Shown here: piece by piece, positions 3,001 to 20,188 of the stretch
Numbering within the stretch: position 1 is the first letter of the stretch
Layout: every line of letters begins with the position of its first letter
DNA from: a virus
IMG/VR virus record: IMGVR_UViG_3300044972_000314
Coordinates: 1 to 31,228 of that record
Length of the DNA stretch: 31,228 nucleotides
Strand: one strand, 5' to 3'
Notes under the pieces: model-generated
Told to the model about the DNA's origin: nothing
Databases searched by the model: none
What the model saw: the letters and a program-made list of their open reading frames with translations, nothing else
Made by a program: the position numbers and the translations under genes

Positions 3001-3353
3001 ATTGGTCTGTAAACACAGTTCTCTTCTTCAAATAATCCTATTTCAGAATTAACAGGCTGCCCTAATGAATTATGTCCTGCTGTAAGTATTACCCATTTAT
3101 CTGAGTATAAGTATATTGCCCCTATTACATATTTTTCTGTAACATTTGGAGGAAAGAATTTACCTGATTCAAAACAAATATAATTAGAAGATTCATTAGA
3201 TAATGAACCCACTCTACCTGTCTTAGAATTGTTGACCATGTTTACTGCATGCGTCCACATTCCTTCAGTTACATAAGAAGGATCAGAATCTTTGTTCAGA
3301 CCCTTTATGAAACTGTCAGTAATATTCTGAGAAGTATCTTGCATGTTTGACAT
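1..3353 (-). CDS. Giant tail-tip ('muzzle'-like) structural protein, C-terminus missing
   Basis: Open frame of at least 1117 codons from an ATG at 3353 running off the left edge, so only the N-terminal part is present. The N-terminus (DSFIKGLNKDSDPSYVTEGM, residues about 13-32) and a later IYWADGLNPDRFLNI segment (about 146-160) are of the type seen in very large tail-tip proteins of crAss-like and other Bacteroidota phages, where the N-terminal part is probably a beta-propeller-like fold. One strongly hydrophobic stretch (VFVMIIFGLAEAIISGVG, near residues 725-742) could be a buried or membrane-active segment. It starts 1 nt after the stop of the ring-like gene to its right and is the last gene of the visible late operon. 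The 'muzzle' role is inferred from size, position and motif resemblance. A large tail spike or tape-measure-like protein is the alternative. Confidence 0.6.
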   Translation of the reverse strand, partial: MSNMQDTSQNITDSFIKGLNKDSDPSYVTEGMWTHAVNMVNNSKTGRVGSLSNESSNYICFESGKFFPPNVTEKYVIGAIYLYSDKWVILTAGHNSLGQPVNSEIGLFEEENCVYRPIVIDPCLKFDKRYLISGTSREREDCTWQIYWADGLNPDRFLNIGNSKTWPSLDDYIFGGATGVNANYYLLLNSSTRILWPGVQWNETCKIINDCNICENVNTLDCEKIRLARLMTTPCLRLKLGQTGGTLANGTYFVVIAYLINGQKVTDYFSQSNYQFIYSPDDLEGSLDLEIEADRINFDEFELVIVSCTNQQTVAKRMGVYSTNTSAISFDQIDPSNISIPLEQLPLKTPVFETSDQIAELNTYLLRVGPKSKFDFNYQPLANMITTKWASVEYPAEYYMKGGNKTNYMRDEVYSFFIRWVYNTGDKTSSYHIPGRAPRQFTVPTTGTSFLETSTLNGDTNTLTTNEKVFEIYNTASADNNNSYIGTKTDDGGTVIATGDMGYWESTESYPDNRPDLWNPSSLCWTGAADASFDLCGKRIRHHKFPEDFINNSPTTDVIRFRSNPTPQTAVGNDYFIRLMGVFFTNIQLPKDNDGNDIPGIVGYEILRGSREGNKTIVAKGMVNNYRTYAIAGNNNYTGLYANYPFNTITPLSSTLGGNVQGESDPFIKAGLKASVPSDVISFHSPDTMFRTPFLSTPEFKLYGHIQGLSNQQFVTPSDHPKFKLLSDATVFVMIIFGLAEAIISGVGKRTTVQTGAAFQSLVGPDITGKEIGGGDIKGGSSGQESINGTGTATISNVNVTHTNIVGSPLKGGDISTKEDEYTDVSKNSVIANINSTQALITGYNAATGALADLATAGLVDVLGGIYQASATTNLSQKGAVYTAPELQTEIAKTNYLPGPLRVLALGQNIATYFSQGVDIALKIMYAVTSYKPFALQMKAYGFYSQMQPVGNNDIKRFTIEDAFYLRDNIQQMSKYLDNNGIYRSYSINNLKRPATVTLRVKNGANQNVGPKLLNIDESLVTLGTLIQTKGVSSPSFKANDISDPFSLPIASHYGALKGRVRNQYGQLDSIKQITISNCEQKLTGSNIQSITPVICNSVSKTRFVIPRTPIFFGGDT

Positions 3354-3354
3354 A

Positions 3355-4410
3355 TTATATCACTTTAGTATTATAGTTTAATCTTGCGTAATTTCCATAG
3401 GTTGGAGCTTTGAACATATCATAGTATTTAGAATACTGTGCTCTTCTGTTAGTCCACCATAGTTGCTCCATCTCTTTGAAGTTTGGAGTATTTATAAAGT
3501 TCAATGCATTTACTCTAGCATCTTTTAATTCTGGTAAAATAATCTGTAATCTCTGTGCTACATTTTCACCATTAAGTGCTAAGTTTTCAATTATTCTTTT
3601 CTTAAATGCATACTCATAGTAATCATTAAGTCTTGGATGATCAGGAACCATAATGTTTCCATCATTATCAATAAGCTCTCCTTGATAGTTTACATACACA
3701 TGTCCATCTTGGAATGTAGTAAATAAGAAACCATCTTTAAGCCAACCTTGATCTGGTCCATTGTAATACAAGTTAGGACATTCACAATCTATGTTCTGAC
3801 TTGCTTTCATTCTAAGTTGCACAAGTGATTTGTATGTTCTTGTTGCTCCAGATTTTACAACCTGAATAAGTTCATACTGCTCACCTTTACAATTCATGAA
3901 TACTCTTGGAGCAATACAAGTATCACCATAAGGATTATTTGGATCATACTCTGTTGGTATAACATTAGTAGGTTCTGTGTGTCCTAAACATCCTGCTGTT
4001 TGATTACATGGATTAGAGTTACATGTTCTACAATTTACTGTAGGAACAGCGCAGGTGTCTATTGTTGACGGGGCTTCTTGGTATTTTACAGGATTCCAAG
4101 GAACTTCTTGTATATTAGTTCCACCAACCATACCATCATAACCAACATGCTCTACTCTATCATAGCATATAAGACCATAGTTCCATACATAGAAATCATC
4201 CGGTAGTTTTACTTTACCGTGACAAACATCTAATATAACTTCCTTAGTTTGATTAAGTCTCAGACCTAAGTCATAGTTAATTTTTCTAGCAAGTTTAATT
4301 AACTGCTGTGGATCTATCATGTTCTCCAATGCAAAAGTTGGTAGATCAATAAGAACATCTTCCATCAACTGATCAAAGGTTCTATATTTTATTGTGTAAT
4401 TGAAGTCCAT
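3355..4410 (-). CDS. Head-tail connector / tail ring-like protein (351 aa)
   Basis: Begins with an N-terminal helical part followed by KLPDDFYVWNYGL (residues 68-80). This resembles the 'LPxDF' segment found in adaptor and ring proteins of podovirus-like phages. A Cys cluster follows (C120, C127, C130, C135, C141), which could bind metal or form a loop, then a beta-rich middle and a helical C-terminus with aromatic residues. It overlaps the stop of the preceding gene by 1 nt (TAATG) and is followed after 1 nt by the giant tail-tip gene. That places it where crAss-like phages carry their tail ring proteins. The virion role rests on context plus the motif; which ring it would form cannot be told. 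Confidence 0.55.
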   Translation of the reverse strand: MDFNYTIKYRTFDQLMEDVLIDLPTFALENMIDPQQLIKLARKINYDLGLRLNQTKEVILDVCHGKVKLPDDFYVWNYGLICYDRVEHVGYDGMVGGTNIQEVPWNPVKYQEAPSTIDTCAVPTVNCRTCNSNPCNQTAGCLGHTEPTNVIPTEYDPNNPYGDTCIAPRVFMNCKGEQYELIQVVKSGATRTYKSLVQLRMKASQNIDCECPNLYYNGPDQGWLKDGFLFTTFQDGHVYVNYQGELIDNDGNIMVPDHPRLNDYYEYAFKKRIIENLALNGENVAQRLQIILPELKDARVNALNFINTPNFKEMEQLWWTNRRAQYSKYYDMFKAPTYGNYARLNYNTKVI

Positions 4411-15214: not shown

Positions 15215-15667
15215 TTATTTTAAGAAAAGTAATTTATATTTTGCAGAATTCATTGTAGACTTGATTGTATCAAGATCATTTACTATTTCTGAGTAAGGCA
15301 TTTTGTCTTGCAACTTACATACCATATCACACATATCTTTTAAATAATCAATACCATCAGCAACAGTATCTAGCTTTCTAGGAGCAGCTTCAGCATAGGC
15401 TAATAGTTTTTCACTAGCACCTTGGAATCCTTCTGCTAAATCATCAGCATGTCCAGGTAATGCATCATACAAATCATTAAGAGCTTTGTGTGCAGCATAG
15501 GATCCAGTACCAGTTACTTTCAAATGTAACTTATGGAAACTAGTTGCAGCATTCATTAATTCACTTACACAAGCTGCAGTAAGTGATTCTACATTACCAT
15601 TAGCAGGAGCTGTAGCATAATTGCTACTTCCTTTTGTAGCTTCTGGTCTTTTTAACATTCTTTGCAT
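15215..15667 (-). CDS. Dps/ferritin-like helical protein, DUF5856 type (150 aa)
   Basis: Almost wholly helical. SFHKLHLKVTGTGSYAAHKA (residues 43-62) followed by DLYDALPGHADDLAEGFQG (65-83) follows the Dps pattern H..HW.v.G...H..l..lYd....D.iAE. H45, H48, H60, D76 and E79 align with typical ferroxidase ligands. This fits DUF5856, a phage family related to ferritin-like four-helix bundles. It lies between the connector-like gene (2 nt away) and the 527-aa structural gene, so it is expressed with virion proteins and may be packaged. A DNA-protecting or iron/peroxide role follows from the family; activity in this copy is inference. Assignment is by eye. Confidence 0.6.
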   Translation of the reverse strand: MQRMLKRPEATKGSSNYATAPANGNVESLTAACVSELMNAATSFHKLHLKVTGTGSYAAHKALNDLYDALPGHADDLAEGFQGASEKLLAYAEAAPRKLDTVADGIDYLKDMCDMVCKLQDKMPYSEIVNDLDTIKSTMNSAKYKLLFLK

Positions 15668-15669
15668 GG

Positions 15670-16368
15670 TTAGTTATTTTTTTCTGATGACTGAGAACCT
15701 CTACTGTATTGATTTGTAGATTCAATATCTCCAGCAATAATTGCTACAGCATCATCTATTATTAATTCAATGATATCATCTTTAAACTCACATGTTACAT
15801 CAACAGCTGTGATAGCATTTGTATATGGATCTGAGCAGTCTAAAAATTCTACTCTTCTCGGTTGTCTATAATATATCAATGATAATGCTCCTATAGTAAA
15901 ATCACCATTAGTGTAAACATTAACATTGTTATTACTTAGAGTAGCAAATGTTTCTCCCCACTCAAAGCTTGGTTGTTTTGCTTTATCTCTTAGGAGTTCA
16001 GATACATTTGATTCTTCTGTAAGATAAATCATCATTCTCCGGTTATCACAACAGCCTTTTTCTCCAGTAAAATCTACACGCTTCCATGCTAAATAATCAG
16101 TAGGTAGTGCAGCAGAATAAAAAATTTGTTTGTTAGCAGGAGTCAATTGAACTGTAGTAAGTAAAACTTGTAAGTCATCCTTTCTTCTATTAGTTTGTTC
16201 ATCACCTTCTTTAACAAGGTTCAATCCATGAAGCTGTCTTCTTACCCATTCAACTTGAGCTTTATTAAATGCCTCAACTATTTGCCAACATTGAATGTTG
16301 TCATAGTCTTGGCTATCTAACTTGTTCAGCCTTTGTTTTACTTTTATTTCAATAGTACTGTTTAACAT
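15670..16368 (-). CDS. Head-tail connector/adaptor-like protein (232 aa)
   Basis: The N-terminus is helical with VEAFNKAQVEWVRRQL, then a beta segment with ALPTDYLAWKRV (87-98), a CC pair (106-107), and a helical end FKDDIIELIIDDAVAIIAG (195-213). The 'helix - LPxDYL - beta - C-terminal helix' layout is that of phage head-completion or gp4-like adaptor proteins, which bind the portal ring. It lies between the small-protein block and the Dps-like gene. The family is judged by pattern only. Confidence 0.55.
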   Translation of the reverse strand: MLNSTIEIKVKQRLNKLDSQDYDNIQCWQIVEAFNKAQVEWVRRQLHGLNLVKEGDEQTNRRKDDLQVLLTTVQLTPANKQIFYSAALPTDYLAWKRVDFTGEKGCCDNRRMMIYLTEESNVSELLRDKAKQPSFEWGETFATLSNNNVNVYTNGDFTIGALSLIYYRQPRRVEFLDCSDPYTNAITAVDVTCEFKDDIIELIIDDAVAIIAGDIESTNQYSRGSQSSEKNN

Positions 16369-16374
16369 AATTAA

Positions 16375-16716
16375 TTAGTCTTTGGCTGTTCTTTTTTTTC
16401 TGTTTGCTAATGCCGTAGCACCAATAATTGCAGTACCCACAGCAACACCTTTAGCAAGTTTACCATATGGAAAACCAGTTGTATCTTTTACTTGAGGTTT
16501 ATTTGATGTAGTATTTTTGTTTGTATTTGAATCAAACCAATTTGATTTAGTTTTTTTAGTAGCTTTAGCAGCTTTTTCAGCTTTAGCTACTTTTGATGCA
16601 GCTGCAGTTTCCTGATAACCTTTTTTAGCAGCTTTAGCACCAGTAATCATTGCTCTTACAACAGGTTTAATAACTTTACCCATCATAGCTTTTGGAAGTT
16701 CTTTTTTCTTTGCCAT
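16375..16716 (-). CDS. Small Lys/Ala-rich protein with C-terminal hydrophobic segment (113 aa)
   Basis: Begins MAKKKELPKAMMGKVIKP; the PKAxxGKxxK motif recurs in the 131-aa protein at 17661. A long Lys/Ala helix (about 25-60), very basic, is followed by a short polar linker. A hydrophobic stretch (LAKGVAVGTAIIGATALANR, about 87-106) then leads to a basic end. This layout suits a DNA-binding internal virion protein or a membrane-active peptide delivered with the genome. The gene follows the 48-aa gene after 2 nt and precedes the connector-like gene. No family recognised. Confidence 0.5.
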   Translation of the reverse strand: MAKKKELPKAMMGKVIKPVVRAMITGAKAAKKGYQETAAASKVAKAEKAAKATKKTKSNWFDSNTNKNTTSNKPQVKDTTGFPYGKLAKGVAVGTAIIGATALANRKKRTAKD

Positions 16717-16718
16717 AA

Positions 16719-16865
16719 TTATTTCTTTTTAGCCATTGCTTTAAATGTCTTTGCCAAAGCTTTTCTTTTTGGTGTACAAGTAGGTTTAGACATTGGAGTG
16801 CAGTAACCCTTATGCTTAGGGTTAACTGCTTTTTGTATCCAATTCTTATCTTTCTTCTCAGCCAT
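16719..16865 (-). CDS. Very small basic protein (48 aa)
   Basis: Open frame from ATG at 16865 to TAA at 16719, read as MAEKKDKNWIQKAVNPKHKG and onward, ending KALAKTFKAMAKKK. Strongly basic, with two Cys (C22, C30) and several Pro. It fits exactly in the gap between its neighbours (2 nt on each side) and shares their MA(K/E)KK start and KKK end, so it is very likely a real gene. Function unknown. The coding DNA contains an imperfect inverted repeat (16801-16828). Confidence 0.55.
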   Translation of the reverse strand: MAEKKDKNWIQKAVNPKHKGYCTPMSKPTCTPKRKALAKTFKAMAKKK

Positions 16866-16867
16866 TA

Positions 16868-17263
16868 CTAGCACTTCTTCTTAGTAGCACCACCCATTTT
16901 TTTCTTGCTCATTTTTGCACCAGCAATTCTATCTGCTGCAGTAGCTTTAGGATTTTTATCTACACCAGCTTTAACAGATAGCATACCAAATGCAGAACCA
17001 CCTTTTTTAAAGCTTGGTCTTTCAGATACACATCCACCTGTAGCAGATCTAACTGTACCTGGAGGGCAAGAATGTTTAACAGCAGTTAGTTTAGAACCAC
17101 CTTTCTTCATTGTGTCAATTCCTTGTTTGTTAGGTCCTGTTGGTCCTGTTTGAGGAATACCATATATCTGTCCTTTTGGTGTAGCAGATCCTACAGTTGT
17201 TTTCATTGTAGAACCACCTTTTTGCATTTTCTTAGCTCCACCACATTGCATACACTTTGCCAT
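16868..17263 (-). CDS. Small basic Gly/Lys-rich protein with KGGS repeats (131 aa)
   Basis: The N-terminus has C4, C7 (CMQCGG). Three K-K/Q-G-G-S motifs (about residues 15-18, 53-57, 86-90) are spaced by about 35 residues. A CPPGTVRSATGGC loop (71-83) and a helical AGVDKNPKATAADRIAGAKM stretch (98-117) follow, and the protein ends KKKC. The KGGS repeats suggest a flexible, positively charged chain. I associate such short proteins with late modules of Bacteroidota phages, but no function is established. It lies 2 nt from both neighbours. An internal, DNA-binding virion protein is plausible, but inferred. Confidence 0.5.
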   Translation of the reverse strand: MAKCMQCGGAKKMQKGGSTMKTTVGSATPKGQIYGIPQTGPTGPNKQGIDTMKKGGSKLTAVKHSCPPGTVRSATGGCVSERPSFKKGGSAFGMLSVKAGVDKNPKATAADRIAGAKMSKKKMGGATKKKC

Positions 17264-17265
17264 AA

Positions 17266-17661
17266 CTATTTCTTTTTAGTTTTAATTGCACCACCTTTTT
17301 TTCTATATAAGTCTTCAACATCTTTTAGATATTGCTCCTTCTTAGTTAATTTTTTAGGATTAGTTCTTTGTTGAATTGCTTTTGTTAAATCTTTCTTAGC
17401 TCGCATTTCATCAACAGTTGCATTTCCTAACCTACCAGAACCTCTATGAATATCTTTACCTTCAGTAAGTGCTTTTTTTTGACTTGGTGATAAACCTGGT
17501 ACACCAGGTTTAGATATACCAATTTGCCTAATTTTACCAACTTTTTTTGCATCACTTACTTTATCAACCGCTTTAAACATATCAGCAGCTTTATCTATAG
17601 CTTTTACAATTTTACCTAATTGAGCTTTAGGCATTGCTTTTTTAGTAATTGCTTTTTTCAT
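17266..17661 (-). CDS. Small basic helical protein (131 aa)
   Basis: Starts MKKAITKKAMPKAQLGKIVK; its PKAxxGKxVK motif is shared with the 113-aa protein. Helices with many Lys, Ala and Asp follow (KAIDKAADMFKAVDKVSDAK), then a Gly/Pro turn-rich middle (ISKPGVPGLSPSQ). A second helix leads to the end KKGGAIKTKKK, which carries the KKGG motif of the next gene. Probably paralogous, in part, to its neighbours. It starts 12 nt after the HNH gene stop. Function unknown. Confidence 0.5.
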   Translation of the reverse strand: MKKAITKKAMPKAQLGKIVKAIDKAADMFKAVDKVSDAKKVGKIRQIGISKPGVPGLSPSQKKALTEGKDIHRGSGRLGNATVDEMRAKKDLTKAIQQRTNPKKLTKKEQYLKDVEDLYRKKGGAIKTKKK

Positions 17662-17672
17662 TTTATATAAAA

Positions 17673-17690
17673 TTTAACATTTCCATTTTT
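17673..17690. repeat. 3'-end copy of the KWKC tail (direct repeat, HNH side)
   Basis: Plus-strand TTTAACATTTCCATTTTT, in the HNH gene's last codons and stop. It matches 18080-18097 (TTTAACACTTCCACTTTC) except at three positions, two of them at synonymous third codon positions. Confidence 0.55.
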
Positions 17691-18093
17691 TCAAATACAA
17701 TTCTGCTTCAGAAACATCATTACTATAAGATAACAAATAAATCCTTGCAAATTCTAAAAGTTGCGGATCATCTTTAAAATGACCTAGACCTCTATTACAA
17801 TGATTACATAGCATACCTCTTATAATATTTGTTTTGTGACAATGATCAACAACTAAGTTTTCTTCTGAACCACAAATTACACATTCTTTTACAGTTTCAA
17901 TAATATCTTTTAAAGCTTCATCAGAAATCATATTTCTATAATGACCTCTTCTTGTTTCACTTTTATAGTTTGCTCTACAAGATTTACACCAACTATCAAA
18001 TCCTGATTTAGTTTTATTATGTAAAGGAAAGTATTCAACAGATAAAGGTTTATTTACTTTACATTTTGTACATATTTTATTTAACACTTCCAC
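17674..18093 (-). CDS. HNH endonuclease, endonuclease VII type (homing-type insertion)
   Basis: Two zinc-binding pairs (C8-C11, C36-C39) lead into the catalytic core CVICGSEENLVVDHCHKT (71-88), then IRGMLCNHCNRGLGHF (91-106). D83-H84, H86 and N100 fit the ββα-metal fold of endonuclease VII-like HNH enzymes (Pfam Endonuclease_7). Such lone genes in phage late operons are usually homing endonucleases that cut a related phage lacking them. The start is GTG at 18093 (or GTG at 18087); no ATG lies near the N-terminus. It overlaps the end of the DUF6321-like gene by 13 nt and ends in KKWKC, nearly the same as the end of that gene (RKWKC), suggesting insertion at its 3' end. Confidence 0.8.
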   Translation of the reverse strand: MEVLNKICTKCKVNKPLSVEYFPLHNKTKSGFDSWCKSCRANYKSETRRGHYRNMISDEALKDIIETVKECVICGSEENLVVDHCHKTNIIRGMLCNHCNRGLGHFKDDPQLLEFARIYLLSYSNDVSEAELYLKKWKC

Positions 18094-18097
18094 TTTC
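18080..18097. repeat. 3'-end copy of the KWKC tail (direct repeat, DUF6321 side)
   Basis: Plus-strand TTTAACACTTCCACTTTC, covering the last codons and stop of the DUF6321-like gene. It pairs with 17673-17690; the HNH gene lies between the two copies. Confidence 0.55.
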
Positions 18098-18326
18098 TAA
18101 GTGCCTTATTTATTCTACTATTCGGATCATTAGCTGTTTTAGCTGATGTATTCTTTTTTTTGTGACCTTCCATCCTTGCACAAAAGCTTTTCTTTCTTGG
18201 TCCACCTTCAGGTTGTGGAGCTTTGATATCATGACCTGCTGCTTTAAGAGAAGCTCTTCCCTTTGCATTAAGTCCGCCAGACGGTGACTTACCTTCTTTT
18301 CTTTGCCATGCTGGTGACTTTGCCAT
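18081..18326 (-). CDS. DUF6321-like small basic protein (81 aa)
   Basis: AWQRKEGKSPSGGLNAKGRA (residues 6-25), KSFCARM (46-52) and the end ALRKWKC match the pattern I know for DUF6321, a small basic protein in phages and viruses of aquatic bacteria. Function is unknown; the basic charge suggests nucleic-acid contact. Both ends are typical, so the protein seems complete despite the HNH gene inserted at its 3' end. It lies 2 nt after the 50-aa gene. The conserved C-terminal Lys-Trp-x-Cys is notable as a possible metal or partner site. Confidence 0.75.
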   Translation of the reverse strand: MAKSPAWQRKEGKSPSGGLNAKGRASLKAAGHDIKAPQPEGGPRKKSFCARMEGHKKKNTSAKTANDPNSRINKALRKWKC

Positions 18327-18328
18327 GA

Positions 18329-18481
18329 TTACTTCTTTTTTGTTGTTGCTTTAATCTTTTTCTCTTGTTTCAACATTGCTGCTGTAGGTTTCTTTCCAGA
18401 ACCTTTAGCATCACGGATGTTATCCCAGAGACCTCTCTGGGAAACACTACCGTCTTTTCTTTTTAGCATTTGCTTTGCCAT
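18329..18481 (-). CDS. Very small basic protein (50 aa)
   Basis: Open frame from ATG at 18481 to TAA at 18329: MAKQMLKRKDGSVSQRGLWD and onward, with GSGKKPTAAMLKQEKKI and a KKK end. The SQRGLWDNI and SGKKPT...MLKQEKKI patterns recur, as I recall, in small proteins beside DUF6321 genes in other phages, which supports it as real. It exactly fills the gap between the 73-aa and 81-aa genes. Very basic; probably a small DNA-contacting virion or assembly protein. The coding DNA holds a perfect 8-bp inverted repeat (18423-18442). Confidence 0.6.
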   Translation of the reverse strand: MAKQMLKRKDGSVSQRGLWDNIRDAKGSGKKPTAAMLKQEKKIKATTKKK

Positions 18482-18702
18482 TATTTTCTTTTCAAAGTTC
18501 TAACTGGTTTAGCAGTTCCTCCAACAACACCTCCTAGAGCTTTAATTTGCTCTTGTGCTAATGACTTAACTTTAGTCATCATTGAAGGGTTTTTTCTAAT
18601 TTCATCAGCCCTCCTTAAAGTAGACAAAGCAGATTCAATTTCCCACTTATCCATTTCTTTGGAAGGTGTAACTTTTAATGCTGATACTTTTTTTGCTGCC
18701 AT
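18481..18702 (-). CDS. Small basic helical protein (73 aa)
   Basis: A helical region with KEMDKWEIESALSTLRRADE (about 15-34) and KVKSLAQEQIKALGG is preceded and followed by basic tails. The MAAKK start and RTLKRK end match the style of its neighbours. Its stop overlaps the next start by one base, so translation is probably coupled. The KWEIESALSTLRRADEI pattern is amphipathic and could bind DNA or a capsid partner. No named family. Confidence 0.5.
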   Translation of the reverse strand: MAAKKVSALKVTPSKEMDKWEIESALSTLRRADEIRKNPSMMTKVKSLAQEQIKALGGVVGGTAKPVRTLKRK

Positions 18703-18707
18703 GACTA

Positions 18708-18950
18708 TTATCTTTTAAAGATTGTTTGAATAAATCTTGTACCTGCAACTTTAACTTTATCAATCAATGAAGAATCTTCAATAGTTTGAGCAGGTTCAGT
18801 AATTACTTCTTTTTCAACAAACAACTCTGGTTGTTCAGTAGGTGTAATTGTTTCTTGTTCAATTACAGGAGCGGTTGCTTCAACAACTACTTCAGTTTCA
18901 GGATTTACTTTCTTTCTTGAAACTCTAGGTTTTTTTACTTTCTCTTCCAT
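18708..18950 (-). CDS. Small protein with acidic/Pro-Thr linker and basic ends (80 aa)
   Basis: A basic N-terminus (KKPRVSRKK) leads to an acidic, low-complexity middle rich in Glu, Val, Pro and Thr (residues 15-60), then a short amphipathic helix (LIDKVKVAGTRFIQTIFKR). This bipolar layout differs from its purely basic neighbours and looks intrinsically disordered, like a tether. It starts about 20 nt after a terminator-like hairpin. Function unknown. Confidence 0.45.
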   Translation of the reverse strand: MEEKVKKPRVSRKKVNPETEVVVEATAPVIEQETITPTEQPELFVEKEVITEPAQTIEDSSLIDKVKVAGTRFIQTIFKR

Positions 18951-18961
18951 AATATATTAAT

Positions 18962-18996
18962 TTAAAATAAGCACCTCCTTATTTAGAAGGAGATGC
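18962..18996 (-). terminator. Terminator-like hairpin overlapping a stop codon
   Basis: Minus-strand arms GCATCTCCTT (18987-18996) and AAGGAGGTGC (18971-18980), 10 pairs with one G-T wobble and a 6-nt loop, then TTATTTTAAATT. It overlaps the stop of the 59-aa gene and lies about 20 nt before the next ATG. The U-tract is weak, so it may be an attenuator or RNA-stabilising hairpin. Confidence 0.55.
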
Positions 18997-19158
18997 TGTT
19001 TTTGGTGCTTTACTAATTCCACCTACTTTACCTTTAGCTACTTTTTGTGCAGATGCTTTAGGATTAACTCCTGATTTAACACCTTTAGATCCAGCAACTT
19101 TAGAAGCTGTAACTTTTGCATTTGGGTTATTCATTTTCCCAGTTGTGTAATTTGCCAT
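18979..19158 (-). CDS. Very small Lys/Ala-rich protein (59 aa)
   Basis: The ATG at 19158 (MANYTTGK) is preferred. A longer frame from 19203 would overlap the preceding gene by 32 nt and adds a sequence unlike its neighbours, whereas 19158 leaves a normal 13-nt gap with an A-rich leader. Composition: Lys, Ala, Ser, Gly and Val in degenerate KVAxSKxxKSG-type repeats, resembling histone-tail or condensin-like peptides. The gene ends inside a hairpin. Probably a DNA-contacting virion peptide. Confidence 0.5.
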   Translation of the reverse strand: MANYTTGKMNNPNAKVTASKVAGSKGVKSGVNPKASAQKVAKGKVGGISKAPKTASPSK

Positions 19159-19171
19159 TTTATTTTTTAAA

Positions 19172-20188
19172 TTAAGAGTTCCAATACTTTTCACAAGCAG
19201 CATTCAAGTCTTTTAAGATGTCCTCATTTAAAGGGTTCTTCAAGTGCTCAACTACATCAGACACATTCCTTCCTAACAAAGCGTTAGTTTTTGTGTGATA
19301 GATATAACCATCTGCCTTACTAACAATATACTTAAAAAATACGGAATCTCTAACAATTGATTTAATTTTTAGTGTTTCCATATCCATATTTGCTGTCTCC
19401 ATAAAGGTTTTAGCAGCTCTTTCTTTGTTTGTCTCACCAGCTAAACCAGCAATGTAATTATCCATGTTTTCATAGATGACATCATTTGGTGTAGACTTTC
19501 TATATTGTGTACTATTGATATCTACAACTTTTGCAATGTAGAATAACTTAGTACTGTTTTTGTCAAATAATTTTTGTAATTCAGATAGAGCCTTGTTACG
19601 TAATTTTTTGTACTCAGTTCTAACCATTACAGTTTCTTCTTCTTTATCTAAGTAAAACTTAGGAGCAACAGCTTTAGCTCTTGCATCTTCTAAACTTTTT
19701 GAAATCAGTGAGAATCCACCAGCTTCAATAGCATAAAGTTTAATTCTATCATATGGGTCTTTAGGATCCAAGAATAATGGTTCATTCCCACATGATACAG
19801 AAATTTTATTCCAAAATTCTGAGTTGTTTGGTTTTAACAACACAACCTTATTCCAGAATTCTTTATCATCAATCTCAATAACATTTGCAGCTAACTCTTG
19901 CTCTAATTCTGCAACTGCTAATCTTATCTCTCTTACTCTAGCTTCTTTTTCTTCTGTAGGAAGTAGTTTGATTTCCGGAGCAAACTCATTTAATCCAGTA
20001 ACATATCTTACAACACCATTGTTGTCTAAACAAGCTAATTGCTCATTGTGTGTTACTCCATCAAATAAACTCATTCCGTAATCTTCTAAACCCATGTTAG
20101 AAGCAGAACTGTCAAAGTACGGTCTTACAGCAATAGCTGTTTTTTTAATAGAACCTTTTCCGGTTTCTACCATTGTGAAATTTTCCAT
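19172..20188 (-). CDS. Conserved-type late protein downstream of capsid gene (338 aa)
   Basis: The ATG at 20188 is chosen; an upstream TTG at 20224 would lie in the U-tract of the terminator. The 16-nt leader AAACCAAAACCAACAA before 20188 also precedes the scaffold gene. The protein is mixed alpha/beta with a Glu-rich coiled-coil helix (EEKEARVREIRLAVAELEQE, about 79-98), a repeated EFWNK (twice within 20 residues, about 111-130), and a C-terminal helical end. I do not know the family. Position directly after the major capsid gene suggests a capsid-associated or internal protein; function is unproven. Confidence 0.5.
   Translation of the reverse strand: MENFTMVETGKGSIKKTAIAVRPYFDSSASNMGLEDYGMSLFDGVTHNEQLACLDNNGVVRYVTGLNEFAPEIKLLPTEEKEARVREIRLAVAELEQELAANVIEIDDKEFWNKVVLLKPNNSEFWNKISVSCGNEPLFLDPKDPYDRIKLYAIEAGGFSLISKSLEDARAKAVAPKFYLDKEEETVMVRTEYKKLRNKALSELQKLFDKNSTKLFYIAKVVDINSTQYRKSTPNDVIYENMDNYIAGLAGETNKERAAKTFMETANMDMETLKIKSIVRDSVFFKYIVSKADGYIYHTKTNALLGRNVSDVVEHLKNPLNEDILKDLNAACEKYWNS

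Follow-up and report, generated by a model that had tools for sequence, protein, structure and literature searches.

A tail shared by adjacent genes

Two adjacent genes of a crAss-like phage (major capsid PF23898) end in nearly the same codons, which raises the question of how the second gene came by the tail of the first. The DNA analysed, referred to as the window, is the whole 31,228-base record, and the region fetched from it is identical to a 120,766-bp contig (L082/L165; L numbers denote the loci compared). The DUF6321 gene ends in AGA AAG TGG AAG TGT TAA (RKWKC-stop) and the HNH gene behind it in AAA AAA TGG AAA TGT TAA (KKWKC-stop), both where the original prediction had placed them (Table 1). 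That prediction took the repeat for the trace of a homing endonuclease that inserted at the 3' end of DUF6321 and kept the host gene complete by duplicating its end. The GTG start of the HNH gene inside the DUF6321 tail, to which it also drew attention, is present (frame +1) but is not special to HNH. Many unrelated next genes start there in HNH-less phages, and the start position was therefore rejected as proof of insertion. In L003, L011, L017, L018, L020, L021, L034 and L040, different next genes begin at one point in the DUF6321 tail (TGGAANTGYTAA, frame +1 reading M-E-L/M-L). With so many different genes starting there, the tail also functions as a start site. An analogous overlap exists in L124/L130, where the gene after HNH begins within the HNH tail at offset −13, the same start offset that next genes have inside the DUF6321 tails of HNH-less phages.

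Table 1 Position and reading of the features at the DUF6321–HNH locus of the window
Feature	Position	Strand	Description
DUF6321 gene	18081..18326	minus	81 aa; PF19846 E=1e-16; gene that received the insertion; recoded tail of type A
Upstream tail copy RKWKC-stop	18081..18098	minus	Imported with the cassette; contains the GTG start of the HNH gene
Recoded junction H55-K-K-K-N59 (CAC..AAT)	18150..18164	minus	M-K-K-K-L in HNH-less GM alleles; candidate cleavage region
HNH gene	17674..18093	minus	PF02945 Endonuclease_7 E=1.6e-15; 139 aa; GTG start
Downstream tail copy KKWKC-stop	17674..17691	minus	Remnant of the native DUF6321 3' end; serves as the HNH C-terminus
Right junction	17654..17695	minus	Matches the DUF6321 tail and spacer of HNH-less relatives
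Approximate foreign segment	17696..18249	minus	Rest of DUF6321 and HNH body; replaces 173 bp of L162
Gene 16868..17263	16868..17263	minus	Next gene after DUF6321 in close relatives that lack HNH; 93% in L162
Gene 17266..17661	17266..17661	minus	Extra Lys-rich gene between HNH and 16868-17263; missing from empty-site relatives

The HNH protein has an Endo VII motif

The HNH protein has an Endo VII motif of the DHHRN type, with an N-terminal C4 finger and an intact DH-H-R-N catalytic set, and matches phrog_2633 (1e-28). The Pfam PF02945 match spans residues 59-120 of 139, behind the finger. The DHHRN family of Endo VII-motif homing endonucleases was defined with F-CphI (PMC6083498), and the defining residues given there are present in the window protein. 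The catalytic and zinc set (CX2-4C, D-H-x-H, R, CX2C, N) is complete in all 59 distinct relatives, which share 55% identity or more. Endo VII-like proteins also include resolvases (PMC6083498). A Holliday-junction resolvase of the Endo VII kind, which should resemble T4 Endo VII along its whole length and have an N-terminal catalytic motif, does not fit: the motif lies in the C-terminal half, and the nearest solved structure by PDB sequence match is Hpy99I (E=4e-9), not T4 Endo VII. With the motif in its C-terminal part, the protein resembles the endonuclease clade and not the resolvase clade. No relative turned up in a scan of GTDB genomes.

Occupied and empty sites

HNH-less near relatives of the window were obtained by a scan with the neighbouring ring protein. 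One of them, L162, is 97.6% identical to the window along 6 kb of downstream sequence and 90.7% identical along 2.2 kb on the opposite side, and its ring protein is 100% identical to that of the window. In L162, DUF6321 is followed directly by the 16868-17263 gene, with no HNH gene between them. The L162 DUF6321 tail and spacer (TTAAGAAAATGGAATTGTTAAAACTTATATAATATG) align to the right junction of the window (85.7%, E=3e-7), that is, to the HNH tail and the spacer behind HNH (TTGAAAAAATGGAAATGTTAAATTTTATATAAAATG). The same match is seen in five relatives, L164, L167, L168, L175 and L237 (E from 7e-8, in L167, to 3e-4). The spacers behind HNH and behind DUF6321 were each scored against 50 distinct empty sites, and the HNH-side spacer is the better match at 39/50 sites for the window, 48/50 for L083 and 49/50 for L197; it is also better in L084, L085 and L190, within 39 to 49 of 50, and its advantage is not clear in L086 (28/50) and L087 (19/50). 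The alignment to empty relatives and the spacer test together identify the HNH tail as the former 3' end of DUF6321.

Beyond about codon 26, the window DUF6321 represents an allele other than the one in its near-identical relatives (42% amino acid identity to L162). About 555 bp of foreign DNA have thus replaced 173 bp, with the edges of the foreign segment set at the limits of blastn homology to L162. Judged by these alignments, the upstream RKWKC tail came with the imported DUF6321 segment, and the downstream tail is the native end of the recipient. A simple local duplication of the tail was rejected, as the two tails belong to different alleles. The second tail is therefore a trace of insertion, as had been predicted, but it is not the duplicated tail of the host gene; instead, the cassette brings its own C-terminal segment.

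Occupied and empty alleles at one site, as expected of a homing gene, are found both between the window and L162 and the other HNH-less relatives and in a second phage group, where a small membrane-protein gene ('WN') stands after HNH in 17 carriers and directly after DUF6321 in 29 non-carriers. The arrangement forecast for HNH-less relatives, DUF6321 followed by the 17266-17661 gene, was not found among them, and the 16868-17263 gene occupies that place instead. The 17266-17661 gene is thus a further difference between the window and L162, and the homing model leaves it unaccounted for.

Several observations concern this gene and its surroundings. A 46% homologue of it lies at another place in L188; in L204, the gene behind DUF6321 matches it only in the first 26 residues. 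Small Lys-rich genes succeed one another over positions 15215-19203 of the window, in an order that varies among relatives; for example, the 18329 gene lies after DUF6321 in L002 and before it in the window. In L162-L241, a TATATA-rich spacer ending in ATG stands behind most DUF6321 genes of this crAss-like group and may be a start or promoter signal.

Relics of the tail in relatives

The tail was scored in the 59 distinct relatives by a strict pattern (W-[K/N-like]-C-stop). A DUF6321-like tail ends the HNH gene in frame in 17/59, is out of frame and no more than 40 nt from the HNH stop in 4/59, and lies further on in another 4/59. Among other gene ends in the same loci, 1/6650 has the pattern, and this lone match is the C-terminus of DUF6321 itself, in cyanophage S-SRM01. 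For the window alone, where the repeat is five residues, a coincidence of a few Lys, Trp and Cys codons in an A+T-rich genome could have sufficed, as the original prediction allowed. The 17/59 frequency against 1/6650 control ends, together with the homology to the empty site (blastn E 3e-7), rejects this possibility, whose probability is negligible.

In the eight relatives besides the 17, the relic behind HNH is out of frame or longer, up to 29 codons. Long type A relics are present in L087, L092/095, L146/148/149 and L154. In L092, L095, L146/148/149 and L154, the whole old C-terminus, with the sequence SGM-KKKLTSAKTA(N/K)DPNSRINKSLR(K/A)W(K/N)C-stop, lies out of the HNH frame or past a short spacer. 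The relic of L087 is about 270 nt further on, and that of L158-160 forms an in-frame fusion with HNH. In L093/094, L096, L097 and L098, the last codons alone remain, out of frame. The intact upstream DUF6321 of L092, L095, L146, L154 and L158 has another module (type B), and the upstream endings in L092, L095, L146/148/149 and L154 are unrelated to the relic (SGM-PGPMKDEKG..TRKALSLKAWNC-stop or a KKPNG variant).

These relics bear on the proposal, also raised at the outset, that KWxC is a selected C-terminal tag, functional in both proteins through zinc or partner binding and either convergent or maintained at the protein level. The tail is near-universal in DUF6321, and the 17/59 HNH proteins that have it in frame outnumber the out-of-frame cases, as a tag would predict. 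A tag does not account for the same tail lying out of frame past the HNH stop in L093, L096, L097 and L098, for the frameshifted remnant in L086, for the many HNH relatives that have no tail, for a likeness that does not end at the stop but extends to the spacer found in empty relatives, or for full-length relics. The out-of-frame and long relics largely refute this proposal, and we consider it very improbable.

In the remaining 34/59 relatives, the strict pattern detects no relic, so that the repeat is absent around an intact insertion, an outcome that the original prediction had listed as contrary to it. Because graded states of decay are visible, this absence is read as decay. L086 (KKEMLN; the tail minus two bases) and L190 (EKWN-stop) both score as 'none' by the strict pattern and look like further decayed tails. 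Decay must be assumed in the 34 relatives and is not proven case by case. Among short relics, in-frame ones are commoner than out-of-frame ones, an excess that requires selection or shared ancestry.

Linkage, C-terminal modules and the junction codon

All 59 distinct HNH relatives lie directly behind DUF6321 except one that is cut off at a contig edge, and with the same exception this holds throughout the relatives of at least 59% identity; adjacency to DUF6321 was not selected for by the query. The linkage extends to loci in which DUF6321 is frameshifted (L099) or ends in KKWGVKC (L107, L132).

The starts of the long relics all fall no further than about 10 bp from the Met codon of SG-M-KKKLTS, the point at which the alternative modules diverge. 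At this same place, the intact upstream DUF6321 of carriers has another module or is recoded (M to H/L); in the window, the GH codon is CAC at 18164-18162. Among distinct alleles from collections not chosen for HNH, GM alleles have HNH in 0/65 cases and GH alleles in 19/36 (Fisher 5e-11), counts in which alleles of related phages are non-independent samples. An earlier, smaller sample gave GM in 67/70 non-carriers versus 0/10 carriers. A direct scan for GH rejected the idea that GH alleles are exclusive to carriers, as about half (17/36) are without HNH; these alleles may be losses of HNH. Carrier alleles are thus changed at the presumed target, as a homing gene should leave them, with the exception of three distinct carriers of the L107/L132 type that keep GM (GMKEKLT), and the change is taken to confer putative resistance.

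In L162-L241, three unrelated DUF6321 C-terminal modules (A, B and C) interchange among close relatives, including those without HNH. Module exchange today therefore does not require HNH. On the HNH tree, the C-terminal type changes 11 times versus 20.1 times when shuffled (0/200 as low), and well-supported branches force at least 4 changes for recoded type A. This clustering is consistent with a replacement end that moves together with the nuclease but is exchanged now and then. A partial Mantel test of HNH against the C-terminus given the N-terminus yields a modest correlation (r=0.25, p=0.0002); since the Mantel correlations alone are weak to moderate, they are not the main evidence.

Free exchange of modules among HNH-less close relatives could also mean that DUF6321 3' modules recombine in the ordinary way at two short conserved motifs, FCARM.G and KWxC-stop, and that the Endo VII gene rides along or is a resolvase or operon partner; resolvases do occur among Endo VII-like proteins (PMC6083498). 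Under such exchange, the confinement of the HNH clade to the DUF6321 site across widely different phages and its near absence from GM alleles would be unexpected, and duplicated relics need insertion rather than simple exchange. The size of the protein and the placement of its motif, in the C-terminal half behind an N-terminal finger, fit the endonuclease clade of PMC6083498. We regard this explanation as unlikely, although less so than a selected tag.

Proposed mechanism

The reading that we favour, with a probability of about 0.8, is that HNH is a homing endonuclease whose target is the native 3' end of DUF6321 and which supplies a resistant end in its place. A free-standing Endo VII-motif (DHHRN) homing endonuclease would have a single home, the 3' end of DUF6321 genes in phages, and would cut native DUF6321 near the S-G-M-K-K-K-L-T codons, a cleavage position suggested by where the relics start. 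Repair from a carrier phage, the presumed direction of transfer, would install the cassette, consisting of a non-cleavable DUF6321 C-terminus and then the HNH gene. The replacement C-terminus would be another module or a recoded one and would overlap the HNH start, and the old C-terminus of the recipient would be stranded behind HNH as a relic. Long at first, this relic would decay to its last codons, and the residual KWxC-stop would either serve as the C-terminus and stop of HNH, as in the window, or sit out of frame. Translational coupling of neighbouring genes is probably why the start overlap persists and why the relic is still reused in frame. The core of the original prediction, a homing-type insertion at the DUF6321 3' end that leaves the host gene complete, is supported by the pairs of empty and occupied sites, the relics and the linkage, with nuclease activity and gain by homing as its putative steps. 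The cassette resembles a selfish element of a natural 'cut and repair' kind that landed repeatedly in the end of DUF6321, across many unrelated phages.

If this reading is correct, phages carry a widespread selfish nuclease that spares its host gene by means of a resistant replacement end, and nuclease-driven replacement can reshape coding sequence. It would explain the gene-end repeats and the C-terminal variety of the phage gene DUF6321, and it predicts where the enzyme cuts and which alleles resist it (GM versus GH/GL/B/C). A broader version, to which we give somewhat less than even odds, is that one nuclease clade drove resistant modules (A-recoded, B and C) through unrelated phages as a natural home-and-rescue drive. 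The C-terminal diversity of DUF6321 would then be largely a record of past sweeps, and the HNH-less GH and B/C alleles would be resistant survivors.

In synthetic home-and-rescue and cleave-and-rescue drives, the nuclease is directed at the coding end of a gene, for which the cassette contains a recoded, resistant rescue end. The phage element differs from them in being natural and phage-borne and in having a protein-guided nuclease, with a putative drive activity. It would be a natural counterpart of these engineered drives and of a rare arrangement in fungal mitochondria.

Comparison with known systems

In fungal mitochondria, mobile endonuclease ORFs (mORFs) with foreign C-termini are known from Allomyces macrogynus atp6 and from Glomus sp. 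atp6, atp9, cox2 and nad3 (PMC3630166), and they are the best architectural match. In both systems, an endonuclease gene is inserted in the 3' part of a gene, whose native C-terminus gives way to a diverged, in-phase one brought by the insertion; the relic of the native C-terminus lies behind the endonuclease, and empty relatives match this relic better than the new end. Among the phages, the layout with the new end upstream and the relic downstream is seen in L092, L095, L146, L154 and L158, and in the window with a short relic. The fungal mORFs have a LAGLIDADG or GIY-YIG nuclease, whereas the phage element has an Endo VII/DHHRN motif and is therefore not a member of the fungal mORF lineage. 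Unlike the fungal elements, it occupies one site across many phage groups, has three C-terminal modules and a recoded codon, and often reuses the relic as the stop of the nuclease itself.

F-CphI of cyanophage S-PM2 is likewise a small free-standing phage endonuclease with the Endo VII motif in its C-terminal half (PMC6083498). It adjoins psbA and cuts the intron insertion site in that gene (PMC6083498), whereas HNH adjoins DUF6321; protection is conferred by the intron in the case of F-CphI and apparently by the replaced or recoded C-terminus in the case of HNH. The T4-like mob/seg HNH and GIY-YIG homing endonucleases (PMC2988022) share with the phage HNH an intron-less, intergenic location and co-conversion of flanking DNA. 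For T4-type free-standing enzymes, the distance to the cleavage site is usually hundreds to thousands of bp (PMC2988022), whereas the presumed target of HNH is less than 100 bp from the HNH start and inside the gene whose end is rebuilt. In the open-access literature, we found no account of DUF6321 or of this arrangement in phages.

Variants of the nuclease gene

Related genes vary in form and number. In L190 (3417-3989) and L197 (3228-3803), HNH has an extra N-terminal zinc-finger-like module of about 55 aa, and these versions follow a type C DUF6321 without overlapping its tail. L092 has three different Endo VII-motif genes in about 3 kb (155-655, 1895-2407 and 3001-3423). In the cultured cyanophage S-SRM01 (L322; MW015081.1, 124181-128564), a 609-aa protein (114-1943) combines DUF5661 with a C-terminal DUF6321, and an Endo VII-motif gene (1992-2402), 46% identical to the window HNH, lies 48 nt after it.
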